This document shows, one piece after another, positions 19,755 to 38,818 of a stretch of DNA of 38,965 nt. Each line of letters starts with the position of its first letter. The first letter of the stretch is position 1. The DNA is from Oscillospiraceae bacterium (GTDB lineage Bacteria > Bacillota > Clostridia > Oscillospirales > Oscillospiraceae). The position numbers and the translations under genes are program-made. Below the pieces are notes generated by a model that saw only the letters and a program-made list of their open reading frames with translations, was not told the origin of the DNA and searched no databases. The stretch is taken from positions 1 to 38,965 of the forward strand of contig WQXY01000021.1 of assembly GCA_009781515.1 (NCBI GenBank), written 5' to 3'.

Positions 19755-21083
19755 ATGAATTCTGCCACTGATATATGGGAAAAGATCCTTGGTCTTTTGC
19801 GTAAGGATTTAACAGAAGTTGCAATATCAACATGGTTTGATGAATGTAGTGCTGTTGAGCTCTCGGGCAACCGTTTGTTTATCCATACCCCGTCGGCATA
19901 CAACAAAAAAGTCATTGAAGAGCGCTTTCTCGGCACTATAAAAGGTGCTCTCGGCGAGCTGTTCTCTACCAATGATTTTGACGTCGTCGTTCTTGATGAT
20001 GACGGGCTTAAAGCAATGACCGAAGCAACAGAAGTTCCCGATTATCTCGGCATTGATGAATACACTTTCGAGCATTTTGTCGTTGGCAGCTCAAACAAAT
20101 TTGCACATGCCGCCGCACTTGCCGTTTCAGACGGCAGTCAAAAACAAAAATACAACCCTCTTTTTATATACGGAGAGTCCGGTCTTGGCAAAACTCACCT
20201 GCTCTACGCCATTCGCCATGCAGTTGAACAAAAATTCCCGCACTACAATGTTGTTTACGTTAAAGGTGACGATTTTACCAACGACCTTATAACCGCCATA
20301 CAACAAGGTAAAAACGTCGAGTTTCGTGACAAATACAGAGGTGCTGACTTTTTCTTAATGGACGATATTCAATTTATCGCCGGTAAGGAAAGTACCCAAG
20401 AGGAATATTTCAACACCTTTAACACCCTCTTTGAGCTTGGCAAGCAAATAGTATTAACCTCAGACAGACCCCCTAAGGACATGTTTTTGTTGGAAGACAG
20501 GCTCAGAACACGCTTCGAGTCCGGTCTTTTGGCAGATATTCAGCCTCCTGACGATGCTCTGCGTATTGCAATCATTAAAAACAAGGCAGAGCAGCTTGGT
20601 GTTGTTTTGCCCGAAGACGTCATTAACTATATTTCCGAAAGCTTGGGCTCAAATGTCCGTCAGCTCGAAGGTGCAGTTAAGATGATAATCGCATATCGCG
20701 ATATTATGGACGATGACATCACAATTGACACAGTAAAATCAATCCTCAAAGAAAGATTTGTCGGAGGAAAAGGTGACTTTATACCCACCACAGACACAAT
20801 CATTGAAGAAACCGCAAAGCATTATCAGCAAAAACCCGAAGATGTCAAAGGGCAAAGCAGGGTTGCCGACACCGCATATGCACGACAAATTGCAATGTAT
20901 CTTATCCGAAAGCTTACAAATCTATCATTAAAAGACATCGGCATCATTTTCGACGGGCGCGACCACTCCACGGTCCTTACATCTGTCCGTAAAATTGACA
21001 AAAAAATCAGAGAAGACAGTAATGTTTCAAATATTATCAGAGATATTACATCAAAGATAAATTCTCGAACTTCAAATATTTAA
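19755..21083 (+). CDS. dnaA: Chromosomal replication initiator DnaA
   Basis: The 442 residues carry all four DnaA domains. Domain I (about 1-75, IWEKILGLLRKDLTEVAISTWF) recruits helicase partners, and a short domain II linker follows. The AAA+ domain III has Walker A GESGLGKT at 140-147 and Walker B FFLMDDIQF. The C-terminal helix-turn-helix includes DGRDHSTVLTSVRKI, which reads DnaA boxes. The protein opens oriC in its ATP form. The likely target lies directly downstream, at 21084-21320. The short domain II explains the modest length. Confidence 0.98.
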   Translation: MNSATDIWEKILGLLRKDLTEVAISTWFDECSAVELSGNRLFIHTPSAYNKKVIEERFLGTIKGALGELFSTNDFDVVVLDDDGLKAMTEATEVPDYLGIDEYTFEHFVVGSSNKFAHAAALAVSDGSQKQKYNPLFIYGESGLGKTHLLYAIRHAVEQKFPHYNVVYVKGDDFTNDLITAIQQGKNVEFRDKYRGADFFLMDDIQFIAGKESTQEEYFNTFNTLFELGKQIVLTSDRPPKDMFLLEDRLRTRFESGLLADIQPPDDALRIAIIKNKAEQLGVVLPEDVINYISESLGSNVRQLEGAVKMIIAYRDIMDDDITIDTVKSILKERFVGGKGDFIPTTDTIIEETAKHYQQKPEDVKGQSRVADTAYARQIAMYLIRKLTNLSLKDIGIIFDGRDHSTVLTSVRKIDKKIREDSNVSNIIRDITSKINSRTSNI

Positions 21084-32990: not shown

Positions 32991-33014
32991 GTAAATAAAG
33001 CAAACTTTATTTAC
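32991..33014. repeat. Perfect AT-rich hairpin at the mfd stop codon
   Basis: GTAAATAAAG (32991-33000) and CTTTATTTAC (33005-33014) pair over 10 bp with a four-base loop, enclosing the mfd stop codon. It joins directly to the GC-rich repeat at 33014-33065. It could protect the message end or attenuate read-through into the isomerase gene. Confidence 0.6.
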
Positions 33015-36000
33015 GAGCCTCCTTCGCTCGCGAAGGGGGTGCCGCTTTAGCGGCGGGGGTTGTTTCTCCAACGCTGTAGCCGTAGCTTCGCACAAATTTT
33101 ACCGCTTCTTCGACAACGCAGCCGCCTTTTAGTTTTAATGATATTGCAGGGTCGGTGCCTGCAAGAACCTTAACTCTGCCGCTGTAATCGGGGAGCGAAT
33201 ACAGTTTTGAAACACTTTCCATATTAAAGTCAGTGAGCTTCAAATTGAGCCAGCCCTCTTTTTGCGAAATCTCTGTTACACCAAGCATGGACGCTTCACT
33301 GCGAAGCATAGAAACAGAGGTGAGCGTAACAACCTGAGCAGGCGGCTCGCCATATCTGTCCACAAGCTCCGAAACCATATCGTCGCAATCCTCTTGTGTA
33401 CGAATGAGGGCAATACGCCTATATATATCCATTCTCTGCTGAGCAGAGGGTACATATTTTTCAGGAATACCGGCAGATACGTTTAAGTCAGCGGGACAAT
33501 CAACGCGTTTTGGCGGTTTTTCGCCCTTTTCTTCCAAAACAGCTTCCTCAAGCAGTTTTAGATACATATCATAACCTACGCTTATCATATGCCCCGACTG
33601 TTCCGCTCCAAGCAGTGTCCCCGCTCCTCTTATTTCAAGGTCGCGCATTGCAATCTTAAAACCGGAGTTGAACTCTGCAAATTCCTTGATTGCACTAAGG
33701 CGTTTTTCGGCAATTTCAGTTAAAAGCTTTCCGCGCCGGAAAGTAAGATAAGCATATGCGCGGCGGGGAGAACGCCCGACACGCCCTCTTATCTGGTGGA
33801 GTTGTGCCAAGCCGAGCTTGTCGGCATCTTCAACAATAAGAGTGTTTACGTTAGGAATGTCAATTCCGGACTCAATAATGGTTGTGCAAACGAGAACCTG
33901 TATTTCCCCTGCCGTCATCTGTTCCATGACATAACTCAAGCTGTCTTCGTCCATTCTGCCGTGAGCAACTGCAAGCTGAAGGTCCGGCATCATCTCTAAA
34001 AGACGTCCGGCAACACGGTCAATATTTTCGATGCGGTTATGCAGATAATAAACCTGCCCCCCGCGTGAAATCTCGCGGCGGATAGCCTCGCATATAATTG
34101 TGTTGTCATGTTCTATAACATATGTCTGAACAGGTCTGCGGCTTTGGGGAGGCTCTTCAATCGTTGACATGTCCCGAATTCCCGACAGCGCCATATTTAG
34201 AGTACGGGGTATCGGAGTTGCGGAAAGCGTCAGAACATCAACATGGTTGGAAATAGATTTTAACCGCTCCTTATGCGAAACGCCAAAGCGTTGCTCCTCG
34301 TCAACAACAAGCAGACCAAGCTTATTAAACTCTATGTCCTTTTGAAGAAGCCTGTGTGTTCCGATAACAAAATCAACGCTTCCCGCCTTTACATCGCGCA
34401 GAATTCTTTTTATCTGGGCAGGCGTTTTGAAGCGGCTGAGCACTTCGATATTTACGGGATATCCCGCAAAACGGCGCATTGAAGTAACATAGTGCTGCTC
34501 TGCCAAAACCGTTGTGGGAACAAGGATTGCCGCTTGATAACCGCCCATTATGCACTTCATAACAGCACGAAGCGCCACTTCGGTTTTCCCGTAGCCGACA
34601 TCGCCGCAAAGCAGACGGTCCATTGGTATTGACTTTTCCATATCACTTTTTATTTCTGCGCTGCTCGTTAGCTGATCATCTGTTTCCTGATAGCCAAACT
34701 TATCTTCAAACTCAGTTTGCCAGAGATTATCCGCAGGAAACGGGTGTCCGGGAGTACGCTGACGGACGGCATAAAGCTTGATAAGCTCCTTTGCCATTTC
34801 CTTTGCGGCTTTTTTTGCACGGGATTTTGCCTTAGCCCATTCTGTGCCGCCAAGCTTGGAAAGCTTGGCAGGAGCGGCTTCCTCGCCCGCTCCGATATAT
34901 TTCGCAACCATATCAAGCTGTGTTGAGAGCACATATAAGGAGTCAGTGCCTGCATATGATATTTTTATATAGTCCTTGTCAACATCGTCAACACGAAGCT
35001 TAAAAAATCCGACAAACTGACCAATTCCGTGCTGGTCATGCACCACAAGGTCCCCCGGCGAAAGGTCTGCAAAGCTTTGCAATCTCTCGCGATTTGTCTT
35101 TTCTTTAACCTTTTTCACACGTCGGGGTGTTGCGGGAGCAATTATTTGACCCTCTGTTACGACAGCAAGCTGTATAGACGGATATTCCATACCCGCAGAG
35201 AGTTCACCAAGAGCAATTACGCAGCTTTTCTCAGGCGGCAGAGCATATAAGGAACTGTCTAAGGTTGACGAAATGCTTCGCTCCTCAAGATATTCCCTCA
35301 TTCTTATTGCCCTGCGTTTGTCCTGACAAAGAAGCACAACCTTATAGTCGGCTTCAAGATAGTGAGCCACCTCAGACGCTGCGGTTTCAAGGCTTCCGCC
35401 ATATGACGGCAGACGTTTGGCATCTATGCTAAGCTGTGTGCGGGGCTTTATTGGATACTCGCTGCTTGCAAAGCTGTCTGTCATAATTACCGGATATTTA
35501 TCAAGATGAATGAGAAGTCCTTGCCAGTCTTCGGAAAAACGCACAAAACTGCTTTCAAGTATTCCGTCTTCAAGCAATGAAACACAGTCGCTTGCAAGAA
35601 GCTTGAGATAGCCGTCCGCACGCTCTTTGACGCGCAAAGGGTCACAAATTATTACAACGGTATCATCGCTGAGATAATCAAGAGACGTTGACATTTTTGA
35701 AATAAGCTCAATATATCTGTCGGATGATGAAAAACTGCGCCCCTCTTCGAGTTTGTCGATGTCTGAGAGAAAGTTTGCAATCAAAGTGGGGTTTGCCGAG
35801 CGATTTTTTTCAAGTCTCAAGCAATGCTCTTTTAACGCAGCCGCAAGCCCTGCGGCACCGCTCCCTGCAGCGCCCTCATACAAAGACGGAAGAGTTTCGG
35901 CAACAGGAATTATGCGGGCACTGCTGAGAGCTTCTGTCCGCCGTTGGGTGGATATATCAAAAAGGCCTATGGAGTCAAGCTCGTCGCCAAAAAACTCGCA

Positions 36001-36576
36001 TCGCACAGGCTCTTCGTGTGCAGGTGAGAAAAAGTCTAAAATGCCGCCGCGTTGGGCAAACTGCCCGGGACCCTCAACCTGTTCGCTTCGGCTGTAGCCG
36101 CAAAGCAGCAGGGTTTCAATCAGCTCGTGAGTATCATATGACTTGCTTGCTTTGAGGCTCATGGATACGCCGCGTAGTTGCTGTGGCGTCAGGGTTCTTT
36201 GTAAAGCAGCACTGATTGACATTACAACAATAGGCGCTTTATGTTCGCACAAAGCTGTAAGTGTTGCAATTCGAGACTGTTCTGCTTGACGGGAAACGCC
36301 CTCGGCACTGCGGAACGTAAATTCTCTTACGTTTAGCGTGAGTGCCTGTTCCATAGTCAAAGAGGCAATATCCCGAGCAAGGCGGTCGGCCTCGTCGTCC
36401 GCAGAGCAAATAACAACAATCGGACGCATGGTTGAAGCCCTGATTGCTGCGGCGGTGTGTGCACGATGAATGTCTGATAGTCCCGATATTACAGCAGGAC
36501 AAGTGCCGCCCTCAATGCTTGCTATAAGCTTTTTGAAGTCGCGGTCTTCTAAGAGTGATTTTGCGAGTGTCAGCAT
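33007..36576 (-). CDS. mfd: Transcription-repair coupling factor Mfd
   Basis: This 1189-residue SF2 translocase removes RNA polymerase stalled at lesions and recruits UvrA. In order it has a UvrB-like N-terminal module, the RNA-polymerase-interaction (CarD-like) domain (SPGDLVVHDQHGIGQF), and the RecG-like translocase. The translocase has Walker A GDVGYGKTEV (K664), VVDEEQRFGV and LSATPIPRTL, followed by VCTTIIESGIDIPN and the TRG/C-terminal domain. The ATG has AGGAG upstream. The last 17 residues (TPAAKAAPPSRAKEARK) come from a two-hairpin repeat at 33014-33065, so the natural C terminus was probably a little shorter or different. Confidence 0.97.
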   Translation of the reverse strand: MLTLAKSLLEDRDFKKLIASIEGGTCPAVISGLSDIHRAHTAAAIRASTMRPIVVICSADDEADRLARDIASLTMEQALTLNVREFTFRSAEGVSRQAEQSRIATLTALCEHKAPIVVMSISAALQRTLTPQQLRGVSMSLKASKSYDTHELIETLLLCGYSRSEQVEGPGQFAQRGGILDFFSPAHEEPVRCEFFGDELDSIGLFDISTQRRTEALSSARIIPVAETLPSLYEGAAGSGAAGLAAALKEHCLRLEKNRSANPTLIANFLSDIDKLEEGRSFSSSDRYIELISKMSTSLDYLSDDTVVIICDPLRVKERADGYLKLLASDCVSLLEDGILESSFVRFSEDWQGLLIHLDKYPVIMTDSFASSEYPIKPRTQLSIDAKRLPSYGGSLETAASEVAHYLEADYKVVLLCQDKRRAIRMREYLEERSISSTLDSSLYALPPEKSCVIALGELSAGMEYPSIQLAVVTEGQIIAPATPRRVKKVKEKTNRERLQSFADLSPGDLVVHDQHGIGQFVGFFKLRVDDVDKDYIKISYAGTDSLYVLSTQLDMVAKYIGAGEEAAPAKLSKLGGTEWAKAKSRAKKAAKEMAKELIKLYAVRQRTPGHPFPADNLWQTEFEDKFGYQETDDQLTSSAEIKSDMEKSIPMDRLLCGDVGYGKTEVALRAVMKCIMGGYQAAILVPTTVLAEQHYVTSMRRFAGYPVNIEVLSRFKTPAQIKRILRDVKAGSVDFVIGTHRLLQKDIEFNKLGLLVVDEEQRFGVSHKERLKSISNHVDVLTLSATPIPRTLNMALSGIRDMSTIEEPPQSRRPVQTYVIEHDNTIICEAIRREISRGGQVYYLHNRIENIDRVAGRLLEMMPDLQLAVAHGRMDEDSLSYVMEQMTAGEIQVLVCTTIIESGIDIPNVNTLIVEDADKLGLAQLHQIRGRVGRSPRRAYAYLTFRRGKLLTEIAEKRLSAIKEFAEFNSGFKIAMRDLEIRGAGTLLGAEQSGHMISVGYDMYLKLLEEAVLEEKGEKPPKRVDCPADLNVSAGIPEKYVPSAQQRMDIYRRIALIRTQEDCDDMVSELVDRYGEPPAQVVTLTSVSMLRSEASMLGVTEISQKEGWLNLKLTDFNMESVSKLYSLPDYSGRVKVLAGTDPAISLKLKGGCVVEEAVKFVRSYGYSVGETTPAAKAAPPSRAKEARK
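33014..33065 (-). repeat. Two-hairpin GC-rich repeat forming the mfd 3' end
   Basis: On minus: CCCCCGCCGC-taaa-GCGGC, then ACCCCCTTCG-cgag-CGAAGGAGG. The architecture (a short palindrome, AC, then a pyrimidine/purine stem) equals that of the elements at 89-146, 314-355 and 6304-6365, but the stem sequences differ. It is probably a related subfamily. Confidence 0.6.
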
Positions 36577-36616
36577 GTAACGCTCCTATAAAAATATTGT
36601 TAAAAATACCACAGAA

Positions 36617-36632
36617 TGTTTCACGTGAAACA
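36617..36632. promoter_or_regulatory. parS: parS site 1 (Spo0J/ParB binding)
   Basis: TGTTTCACGTGAAACA is a perfect 16-bp palindrome, extending to 20 bp with AAT/ATT, and matches the bacterial parS consensus. It lies about 15 kb from the oriC candidate, in the gap downstream of the DUF3784-like gene. ParB and SMC loading here would organise the origin for segregation. Confidence 0.92.
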
Positions 36633-36677
36633 TTTTTTGCTACATATTGTGTTTGTGCTATGCTGGCCTGTGTTCCC

Positions 36678-36764
36678 GACATGTTATGTATGTAGGGGAG
36701 TGATTTGCTTTCTTCTCCGACATGTTGTGTATATATGCTCGTTAGGGTGTTTCGTGAAAATCGC
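36678..36764. repeat. Fragmentary copies of the palindrome-ended element
   Basis: CCGACATGTTATGTATGTA (36677-36695) and CCGACATGTTGTGTATATATG (36718-36738, shown in part) resemble the ends of the element at 36781-36959. GTTTCGTGAAAATCGC after them matches the TTGCGTGAAAAGCGC stretch of the element at 37913. These look like internally deleted copies. Confidence 0.55.
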
Positions 36765-36780
36765 TTGAGGACTTGTGTTT

Positions 36781-36959
36781 CTGCAATGTTATGTATATAT
36801 GTGCGAGTGATTAAGTGGAGCAAATTAGCGAATGTAGGCGAAATGTCAGAAAAGAGCGGGTGATGTCTGAGCGAAGCGAGTTCGGCCGCTCCTGACATGA
36901 GCCGTACAAACGATATTTGCAAAACGTCCAAACGAGAACATATATACATAACATTGCAG
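36781..36959 (-). repeat. Palindrome-ended intergenic element, copy A
   Basis: The ends are perfect 22-bp inverted repeats (36781-36802 and 36938-36959). The inside matches copy B (37913-38087) read in the opposite direction: CGTTTGGACGTT at 36934-36923 and TTTCGCCTACAtTCGCTAATT at 36843-36823, 20 of 21 identical. It has no convincing open frame. It could be a MITE-like element or a large structured site. Confidence 0.75.
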
Positions 36960-37013
36960 TTTCGTGCCGAGGCAATTGCGAAACGCCTAAACGGTCAGAC
37001 ATATATGCCAGAC

Positions 37014-37046
37014 ATAAAAAAGTTGCAACGATAATGTGTGGCAACT
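37014..37046 (-). terminator. Terminator of the DUF3784-like gene
   Basis: On minus, AGTTGC (37046-37041) pairs with GCAACT (37026-37021), followed by TTTTT. The stem overlaps the stop codon of the gene. Confidence 0.5.
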
Positions 37047-37842
37047 AATCAATAAAGTAGGCGTCGAACCGCCACCCCATTAGCACCTTGAAAAGCTCAA
37101 CAGTTTTGCCGCTTTCCTTAAAGCTTATATATATGTCGTTGCCCCGATGTCGCTCAATTCGTATGGTTGGCGAAGATGTGGGGAAGACAAAAAGTAACTG
37201 AGGGCCAAGCTCGTCTGAGCGAAATTCGCCCTTGAGTGCATTCCCTCCAAAACCGTTAGTCCGCCGACCGATGCCAATTTCGCTCATGCTTTCTTGAACA
37301 AGCGTGATGCTGCTGATGTTTTCCATAGGAATTTCCGTGCCATACATTCCTTTTATATGAACTCTGCTGCTGTCGACAAGAACCTCGGGGTCGCGCTCGC
37401 CTTGATAGAACATAACAACTATTCCGGCGCAAATCACAATGCTGACCATGATGCCAAAAGCGATTGCAGCTTTTTTTGCCCTTGACATGGGCATGCGTAC
37501 AAAAACTTCGCTTGGATTTGGAGCGATGCGGAAACGGTTGCCCGTGTTTCCGTATATAACATATCCTATGGAAACCCCTACGACGAGGCCGATTACAATA
37601 TAAAAGAATGTCATGGTTTCGTGATACATCGTTACAGGCAAAAGTAACATCAGCGCGGTCAGCACAATCAAAAACTTGCCGGTTGAGCGGCACAGCGCCT
37701 CGGTATCATATGTTGCTTTTTCTGCAGGGCTCATCATGTTATAGCCCGATATCAGAAAGGCTCCCTTGCCTTGCAGAAGAAATATTGCTGCTATCATCAT
37801 TGGTATAGCAACCGAACCCATTATTATCCACATTAGTAACAT
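37045..37842 (-). CDS. DUF3784-like membrane protein with PH-like C-terminal domain
   Basis: This protein of about 265 residues has at least four membrane segments. The N-terminal part has FLLQGKGAFLISGYNMMSPAEKATYD followed by ALCRSTGKFLI, the pattern of DUF3784 proteins. After the membrane part, about residues 150-265 form a beta-rich domain (VDSSRVHIKGMYGTEIPMENISSITL) like bacterial PH/YcxB-type domains. The function is unknown. The start is ATG 37842, eleven bases after AGGAGG; the upstream GTG overlaps that ribosome site. The gene is bracketed by parS sites and inverted repeat elements. Confidence 0.7.
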   Translation of the reverse strand: MLLMWIIMGSVAIPMMIAAIFLLQGKGAFLISGYNMMSPAEKATYDTEALCRSTGKFLIVLTALMLLLPVTMYHETMTFFYIVIGLVVGVSIGYVIYGNTGNRFRIAPNPSEVFVRMPMSRAKKAAIAFGIMVSIVICAGIVVMFYQGERDPEVLVDSSRVHIKGMYGTEIPMENISSITLVQESMSEIGIGRRTNGFGGNALKGEFRSDELGPQLLFVFPTSSPTIRIERHRGNDIYISFKESGKTVELFKVLMGWRFDAYFID

Positions 37843-37868
37843 AATTGTTAACACCTCCTACTAAATAT

Positions 37869-37884
37869 TGTTTCACGTGAAACA
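37869..37884. promoter_or_regulatory. parS: parS site 2 (Spo0J/ParB binding)
   Basis: This is the same perfect TGTTTCACGTGAAACA as site 1, 1252 bases away. The bases after both sites (CATTTT, then a CATATnTTGTGTT-like run) are also similar, so parS belongs to the duplicated block. It lies just upstream of the DUF3784-like gene. Confidence 0.92.
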
Positions 37885-37912
37885 TTTTATATCCATATGT
37901 TGTGTTCCTGTG

Positions 37913-38087
37913 TTGCTGTTTTGTATATGTGTCCGTTTGGACGTTGCGTGAAAAGCGCTTGTGAGGCTCACATCAGGGTCTCGCGAACTCGCCTATGGCT
38001 CAAACATCGCTCCCCCTTTTCTGATGTTTCGCCTACAATCGCTAATTCACTTCACTCAATCACTCCCACATACACAAGACAGCAACC
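37913..38087 (+). repeat. Palindrome-ended intergenic element, copy B
   Basis: The ends GTTGCTGTTTTGTATATGTG (37913-37932) and CACATACACAAGACAGCAAC (38068-38087) are inverted repeats with two mismatches in 20. The interior is homologous to copy A in inverse orientation. The end sequences of A and B differ from each other, yet within each copy the two ends pair. Confidence 0.75.
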
Positions 38088-38113
38088 AGAAAACAAAGAA
38101 CAATGCTCGAAAA

Positions 38114-38818
38114 CTACAACGGAGATTTTTGTATACGTGCGAACCTGCGGGGATAGCGCTCAGAGGTTTTTGACGTTTTTTTGATAATTACAGCCCTGTG
38201 AACAATGTCAGTGTCCGGTATTGTATAGTCAACACACTTATGTAACTGCGCGCCAAGTGCTTCGATTGCCCGGTGTGCCGCGCGAAGCTCGTCCTCAGAA
38301 TTTACGCTTTTCATTGCGATAAACAAACCTTGTGGTTTTACAAACGGCAGGCAAAGCTCGCACAGCGAGTTTAACTTTGCAACCGCCCGTGATACGCATA
38401 TATCGTACTGCTCCCGCATATCAGCCGTATGTGCCGCTTCTTCGGCTCTGGCGTGAATGCACGCCGCGTCTATATTTATCAAGGCGCATAAATGCTCCAG
38501 AAAATCTATGCGTTTTCTTGTTGCATCAAGCAGAGTCAAGTCAACGGATGGCTCGGCAAGCTTCAAAGGCACTCCCGGGAAACCTGCGCCGCTTCCTATG
38601 TCTATAACTTTTGCGGTTTTGAAGTCTGCGATTGTCAGCAAAGCAATTGAGTCTAAAAAATGCAAATGTGCGACACTTTCAGCTCCCGATATAGCTGTCA
38701 GGTTTACGTTTTCGCCGTGTGTACTGAGCAAATCATAATACGCTTCAAACGCCGCCTCAGTTTCGGGCGGCAGAGTAATATTCAGCTTTTTTGCACCTTG
38801 CAGGGTGATATCAGACAC
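38114..38818 (-). CDS. rsmG: 16S rRNA (guanine-N7) methyltransferase RsmG
   Basis: This 234-residue SAM-dependent methyltransferase (GidB) modifies G527 of 16S rRNA; loss gives low-level streptomycin resistance in many species. VIDIGSGAGFPGVPLKL (about 72-88) is the SAM loop, VNLTAI (about 39-44) precedes it, and VSRAVAKL (about 140-147) and the YPRRFARIQKSPL end are typical. The start is GTG 38818, in frame with and two codons after the mscL stop. Its AGAGGAG ribosome site overlaps that stop and is only about one base from the GTG, unusually close, so the start or mode of initiation (coupling) is uncertain. Confidence 0.93.
   Translation of the reverse strand: MSDITLQGAKKLNITLPPETEAAFEAYYDLLSTHGENVNLTAISGAESVAHLHFLDSIALLTIADFKTAKVIDIGSGAGFPGVPLKLAEPSVDLTLLDATRKRIDFLEHLCALINIDAACIHARAEEAAHTADMREQYDICVSRAVAKLNSLCELCLPFVKPQGLFIAMKSVNSEDELRAAHRAIEALGAQLHKCVDYTIPDTDIVHRAVIIKKTSKTSERYPRRFARIQKSPL

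Follow-up and report, generated by a model that had tools for sequence, protein, structure and literature searches.

The window, as we call the whole 38,965-nucleotide stretch analysed here, comes from an Oscillospiraceae bacterium and has the gap between the mfd and rsmG genes at its right end. dnaA (19755-21083) and dnaN lie at 19.8-22.4 kb of the window. The gap holds two copies of the 16-bp palindrome TGTTTCACGTGAAACA, which we take to be the consensus of the chromosomal parS sites of Firmicutes, together with one gene and two long hairpin elements accompanied by pieces of further copies (Table 1). A preliminary description of this DNA had reported two identical parS palindromes and, around one membrane-protein gene, two long palindromes in opposite orientation. 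The parS positions were right and both matches are exact, the opposed palindromes are borne out by pairwise comparison and by folding, and the one open reading frame between the elements belongs to the DUF3784 family.

Table 1. Features in the mfd-rsmG gap and at its borders (window positions)
Feature	Position	Strand	Remarks
mfd	33007-36576	-	Left border of gap; Pfam TRCF, CarD/TRCF-RID and helicase domains
parS 1	36617-36632		Perfect 16-bp palindrome; exact match to TGTTTCACGTGAAACA
Short piece resembling right end of element 2	36681-36706	-	Score 15, equalled by 1/1000 shuffles; 75% complementary
Fragment b	36722-36780	+	Left half of another copy (aligned part 36723-36767); left arm of outer palindrome
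Hairpin element 1	36781-36959	+	Arms 36781-36802 / 36938-36959, 22 bp, perfect; model match 36814-36934
Fragment a	36960-37017	-	Inverted left half of another copy (aligned ~36976-37015); right arm of outer palindrome
DUF3784 gene	37045-37854	-	PF12650, E 2.5e-21; sits between both parS
parS 2	37869-37884		Perfect 16-bp palindrome; exact match to TGTTTCACGTGAAACA
Hairpin element 2	37913-38087	-	Model match 37934-38056 (-); arms paired at 27/30 aligned positions
rsmG (gidB)	38114-38818	-	Right border of gap; PF02527, E 6.4e-48

Hairpin elements and nested half-copies

Elements 1 and 2 are complementary over 75 nt at 83% and a further 69 nt at 72% (76% over 156 nt by BLAST). Folded as DNA and compared with shuffled sequences, they reach z -9.45 (36781-36959) and z -5.45 (37905-38087). 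Element 1 is enclosed by an outer palindrome, 36722-37017, which the preliminary description had missed. The palindrome is built of two half-copies, fragments b and a, which pair with each other, and the whole stretch folds as one nested hairpin (z -6.55). Fragment b and the left end of element 2 agree at 36 of 45 positions, with a score of 27 (the best of 1000 shuffles scored 16 or 20, depending on the stretch compared). Fragment a is a weaker match, both to the left end of element 1 (score 17, equalled by one of 1000 shuffles) and to fragment b (score 14, equalled by two of 1000).

Along the plus strand, the left end of an element follows each parS site, as fragment b about 90 nt past parS 1 and as element 2 about 30 nt past parS 2. 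The similar sequence that had been described after the two sites is found here, between 36723-36767 and the left end of element 2; it does not extend to the ~35 nt directly after each site, where 147 of 2000 shuffles were as good. It is possible that, in this lineage, a block of parS plus element was duplicated locally. By core identity, element 1 is closer to a copy in the related genome G006 (0.793) than to element 2 (0.769), and element 2 is closer to a partial copy in G015 (0.786) than to element 1. The two are thus not mutual nearest relatives, which weakens the case for a simple local duplication.

A dispersed family within the genus

A BLAST search with the element against its own genome gave good matches to the window copies alone, as if the element were confined to the parS gap. 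That reading was dropped when a covariance model, R1, built from 11 cores and with matches counted at E up to 0.01, revealed seven more, diverged copies; the BLAST result is explained by limited sensitivity. The nine matches of this genome are two in the window, two on contig C2 and one each on C10, C9, C1, C14 and C11 (partial). Among 119 relatives, R1 matched 10 genomes, all in the same genus (10 of its 19), with 63 matches in total and one to seventeen copies per genome; no genome was matched among the 100 relatives in other genera.

Members of the family are imperfect hairpins (the whole element is ~180 nt here) with a core of ~120 nt that has covarying stems of its own and usually a GNA-type mini-hairpin as its cap. 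The arms, mostly of 20-35 bp, are matched within a copy and mostly differ between copies. In the 59 of 63 matches aligned to R1 (three apex-only matches in G016 and one match in G015 were left out), 29 of the 34 pairs have changed on both sides, in an alignment that is itself fitted to the structure; the figure from a MAFFT alignment of 11 copies was 17 of 34. Paired cells amount to 94.2% compared with 77.6% in shuffles (0 of 500 as good), and to 31-48% when partners are slid by 1-3 columns.

The pairing of the arms is largely private to each copy. For the 55 of 59 copies with both flanks, the median complementarity of a copy's own arms is 17.0, as against 7.0 when arms of different copies are paired within a genome and 6.0 when they come from different genomes. 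Own arms pair better than every mismatched partner from the same genome in 36 of 53 copies; many of the other 17 belong to G007 and G013, where some copies have arms in common. Mean identity between copies of a genome is 0.68-0.92 for cores and 0.57-0.80 for arms (shuffled 0.53, sd 0.07), so that the terminal inverted repeats common to all copies that would mark a MITE were not found.

By eye, six G015 copies (L246, L250, L252, L254, L255 and L197) have in common both their outer ends, CCGCAGTAGTAAAAAA and TTTTTTACGG, and their inner core; the 15-20-bp stem between ends and core varies among these six and is largely still paired. In G013 (L232, L234, L240-L244), also by eye, the hairpin apex holds extra inserted sequence that is partly palindromic and of varying length.

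The apex loop can be read in 41 of the 59 copies and is extended or shortened in the other 18. There are 36 triloops (32 of them GNA), four tetraloops (all GNNA) and one five-base loop, that of element 2. Three of the four (GTCA, GCCA and GACA) break the GNRA rule for RNA, and mini-hairpins of the d(GCGAAGC) type are known to be extraordinarily stable; the loop types lean towards a DNA hairpin. The strings GTAG and CGTC, terminal tags of REP/RAYT repeats, both occur inside some copies.

Most copies are intergenic: in a simple ORF call, six of 59 overlap an ORF. At three sites (G000:C9, G005:C1 and G005:C50), arms reach 16 to 27 nt into the 3' end of a called coding region. That arms might be copies of coding ends was considered but not adopted: the arm at G005:C1 spans the last eight codons and the stop of a KDPG/KHG aldolase gene, where only about two residues look common to orthologues (by eye). 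At G000:C9, an AAATAG end in common with the C10 copy points (by eye) to the element rather than the gene as the source of the pyrF stop.

Presence, absence and inversion of the core

Contigs G007:C223 and G008:C225 share 95-96% identity in the sequence to either side of a site at which the core is present in G007 and absent in G008. The G008 site is not a clean pre-insertion site: it keeps part of an arm, and AT-rich sequence replaces the rest. Although the best case available, the pair was therefore rejected as a strict empty site, the site being degraded. A flank query at another locus of the same two genomes hit two separate G008 contigs, with identities of 88% and 83%. In the present genome (G000), an element occupies the gap between the convergent genes valS and pyrF. 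The aligned ends of these genes stand 37 bp apart in G004 and 18 bp apart in G018, and the gap is longer or rearranged in other relatives.

Nine loci were compared in G013. Four have common flanks, and of these the core is in one orientation in two and in the opposite orientation in two. Scores for the inverted flanks range from 17 to 114, with a shuffle maximum of 17; seven of the eight (23 to 114) exceed it and one equals it.

Origin of the matched arms

We consider it probable that two things share one gap here, parS sites and a dispersed family of hairpin repeats, and that the latter are MITE/REP-like repeats whose arms are matched by template switching. The elements would be selfish or neutral intergenic repeats of this kind. 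When single-stranded during replication, an element would fold into one long hairpin, and template switching between the arms would copy one arm onto the other, so that pairs stay matched while the sequences of different copies drift apart; the same process would sometimes flip the core. Both template switching as the cause and the mobility of copies to new sites are what we infer from features seen directly in the genomes, namely dispersal, covariation, arms specific to the copy in most copies, core inversion between common flanks, and presence or absence in close relatives.

In the text available of PMC8604942, template switching between inverted repeats leads to arm homogenisation and spacer inversion, and in that of PMC8794818 perfect stems are created and repaired by template switching. 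The matched private arms and flipped cores seen here resemble the outcomes given in those parts of the two papers, which makes template switching the most likely cause. The likeness covers matched arms, paired changes on both sides and inversion of the spacer. The systems treated in the available parts of PMC8794818 and PMC8604942 are RNA genes and yeast coding DNA, whereas ours is a dispersed bacterial repeat family. Stems specific to the copy would also arise through single-base compensatory drift, given selection for structure.

Part of the comparison with MITE-like palindromic repeats such as ERIC and RUP that follows draws on general background. Like the repeats in the available text of PMC2267715, the family consists of dispersed, mostly intergenic sequences of ~100-200 bp that form one long hairpin; it differs from them in that its outer arms are mostly private and its middle conserved, and in its nested hairpins and flipped cores.

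The elements may also, though in our judgement this is unlikely, be under selection at the transcript level as structured non-coding RNAs or bidirectional terminators, in which only pairing matters and stems are free to vary. The strong covariation speaks for this, as does a strand asymmetry that is compatible with RNA too: leaving aside one fixed T.G column, cells of G.T type outnumber those of A.C type (49 versus 19). Some copies are packed closely between convergent genes, and A6/T6 runs end some of the G015 arms. The copies, however, have no fixed orientation to neighbouring genes: among the 52 of 59 with both neighbours called, 16 are -/-, 15 -/+, 13 +/- and 8 +/+, none of them preferred. 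Presence or absence between close relatives, inversion of the core and the tetraloops that depart from the GNRA rule also count against transcripts, as does Rfam: version 15 gave no match at 36500-38200 up to E 1, and at 14 loci with related hairpins it returned one tRNA alone at gathering scores.

A further proposal, which we find decidedly improbable, is that the core belongs to a hairpin-targeting mobile element that inserts into the loops of pre-existing hairpins, the arms then being the target's own stem. Copy-specific arms in most copies would follow, element 1 does lie within an outer palindrome, and the G013 copies seem by eye to carry further hairpins in their own apex. On the other side, the inner part of the arm seems common to the copies of this genome (by eye), no stem of comparable length was seen by eye in the valS-pyrF gaps of relatives, with a short one in G018, and arms overlap coding 3' ends at the three sites named above, where long prior palindromes seem unlikely.

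Similar hairpins in other phyla

Named genomes from several phyla contain exact copies of the 21-nt apex, in at least 118 stretches. For 110 occurrences with full flanks among the matches listed, the complementarity of the arms beyond the apex was set against that of mismatched arms; it exceeds their 95th percentile 71, 63 and 47 times in three distance bands, with about 5.5 expected per band, and many of the occurrences come from related Burkholderiales and are not independent. R1 applied to 79 of the 118 stretches listed gave 95 matches at E up to 1, the best at 70 bits; since the stretches were chosen by their apex, these scores are not independent of it. A looser apex pattern matched 26 of 398 genomes of the phylum, some probably by chance, and a reversed-pattern control was of little use because the pattern nearly matches itself backwards. 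Common descent of the hairpins across phyla is no more than suggested.

A bolder version would see a cross-phylum superfamily of single-strand-DNA hairpins with a conserved GNA-loop cap (of the GAGCGAAGCGAG type), in which inverted copying of flanking DNA furnishes every new site with arms of its own. Its records come from Oscillospiraceae, Clostridium, Gastranaerophilales, Variovorax, Desulfobulbaceae, Parabacteroides and Patescibacteria. We hold this to be quite improbable; if true, such a superfamily would spread by an undescribed route.

Thirteen pairs of neighbouring R1 matches less than 400 bp apart were found in distant taxa (L084, L085, L089, L102, L124, L127, L130, L133, L134, L136, L138, L142 and L152). 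In all of them the minus-strand match comes first, a divergent, REPIN-like arrangement. These pairs, with the palindromic, intergenic and multi-copy nature of the family, speak for REP/REPIN-type repeats mobilised by a RAYT (Y1) transposase, a reading that we nonetheless consider very unlikely. Within the genus, PF01797 is present in four of the 10 genomes that bear elements (below the family cut-off in one of them) and in four of the nine that lack them, and was not found in the two element-richest, G013 and G015 (92% and 69% complete). RAYT mobilisation was accordingly rejected, as PF01797 does not track the presence of the element. The size is also far from that of REPs as given in the available text of PMC3733652: instead of a 20-40 bp hairpin, the model match is ~120 nt and the whole element ~180 nt. 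What the family has in common with the REPs and REPINs in that part of PMC3733652 are the hairpins and, in distant taxa, the inverted pairs; its much greater length and, in this genus, the missing correlation with PF01797 set it apart.

parS sites in this and sister genomes

In this 90%-complete assembly, the perfect parS palindrome occurs twice, both times on contig C21, and the next-best two places carry two mismatches. The pair lies ~15-17 kb from dnaA/dnaN, and is thus origin-proximal. The parA and parB genes are beyond the end of the parS contig or elsewhere; in sister genomes they are close, within roughly 2.5-5 kb of parS. We conclude that the parS pair is real and probably ordinary, and that its sites, to judge by their motif, are presumably ParB loading sites. 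Like the chromosomal parS of Firmicutes, they consist of the 16-bp palindrome near the origin, with parAB nearby in sister genomes. They differ in bracketing a DUF3784 gene and in having parA and parB off the contig.

The mfd-rsmG gap of the genus holds parS sites, sometimes more than one. A parS site adjacent to mfd was found in 14 of the 15 sister genomes examined, on the rsmG side where the locus reaches rsmG. In G002 rsmG is farther away and inverted, and the G018 locus shows neither mfd nor rsmG. The gap contains two sites 31 bp apart in G009 and, in G010, three that have genes between them. Extra parS sites lie at the start of parA in G003, G011, G015 and G016, and in G003 and G018 parS is repeated along with its own flanks, without elements.

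Genes between parS sites, like the DUF3784 gene here, are also present in G005, G006 and G010. Those tested in G006 and G010 encode acetyltransferases, an HD protein, a methyltransferase and an ECF-like protein (below cut-off). No family was found for one inter-parS protein of G010 or for the single G005 protein tested. In several species of the genus (L296, L302, L303; 36617-37884 in the window), the interval between parS sites looks as if it gathered cargo genes.

Two other observations concern the surroundings of parS. Shortly 3' of many parS sites in sister genomes there is, by eye, a loosely common stretch resembling GCTACATATTGTG. Matches to PF01797 (Y1 transposase) lie near parS at G016:C65:5614-5883 and G004:C21:9998-10324, the latter below cut-off. 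A RAYT-like ORF near parS in G010 (L026, 2733-3005), picked out by a narrow motif scan of ORFs, was discarded: it has no Pfam match, and PF01797 was not found in G010.

Are the repeats coupled to parS?

The preliminary description had proposed that parS and the element form a module that spreads or has been duplicated, and had suggested a genome-wide search for the two together. For the elements, that search largely found copies scattered away from parS. Of the nine R1 matches of this genome, seven lie on contigs that carry no perfect parS. The nine sister genomes have 54 matches, and in no case does the same contig bear a perfect parS within 40 kb; most of these assemblies are fragmented and mostly do not give the true distances between contigs. 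Nine of the 54 are uninformative either way, as they come from G007 and G008, which show no perfect parS. The only sister contig that bears both R1 matches and a perfect parS is G013:C7, where they are ~41 and 44 kb apart. Conversely, a search of 16 parS loci from the 15 sister genomes with R1 at E up to 1 found no full element near parS; the single match, in G016, is an apex-only hit of 39 nt (E 0.0013) 1.8 kb from parS.

Element pieces do follow both parS sites in the mfd-rsmG gap, and the idea of a duplicated module stands to the extent that a local duplication is possible; joint travel of parS and element, and with it a spreading unit, is not supported by the counts above. That the two form a functional centromere-like block, duplicated here, whose hairpins bar or help ParB spreading or SMC loading is hardly credible: the element left ends after both sites and the lack of any other perfect parS in the genome speak for it, and against it stand the 7/9 copies on parS-less contigs, the 0/54 sister copies within 40 kb and the one partial match at 16 loci.

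Coupling as a rule is not supported; what we see is local coincidence or local duplication. The reading that we prefer, that of template-switched repeats sharing a gap with parS, is weakest where it puts the two copies beside parS down to chance, aided by local duplication or nesting: it is a striking coincidence that a single 1.5-kb gap should hold two of the nine copies next to the sole two perfect parS sites.

Standing of the family and what it means

Literature searches with the apex motif GAGCGAAGCGAG found no paper on repeats, judged by title, and those with variants of the motif gave matches that, among those listed, were unrelated by title. Searches by topic surfaced REP, ERIC and stem-loop surveys, none of them found to describe this family, and a search on parS, mfd and gidB gave nothing relevant by title. 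Judged by these motif and topic searches, the family, a variant among the dispersed hairpins of bacteria, matches no described one.

For this genus, the analysis removes as unsupported a tempting link between a repeat and the chromosome centromere and puts in its place a repeat family whose copies have stems that differ in sequence and still pair. Should template switching be the cause, the genus, with its one to seventeen copies per genome, would offer a natural experiment on how hairpins are born and stay matched in bacteria. The copies would also counsel caution, in that 'compensatory changes' need not imply a selected RNA.
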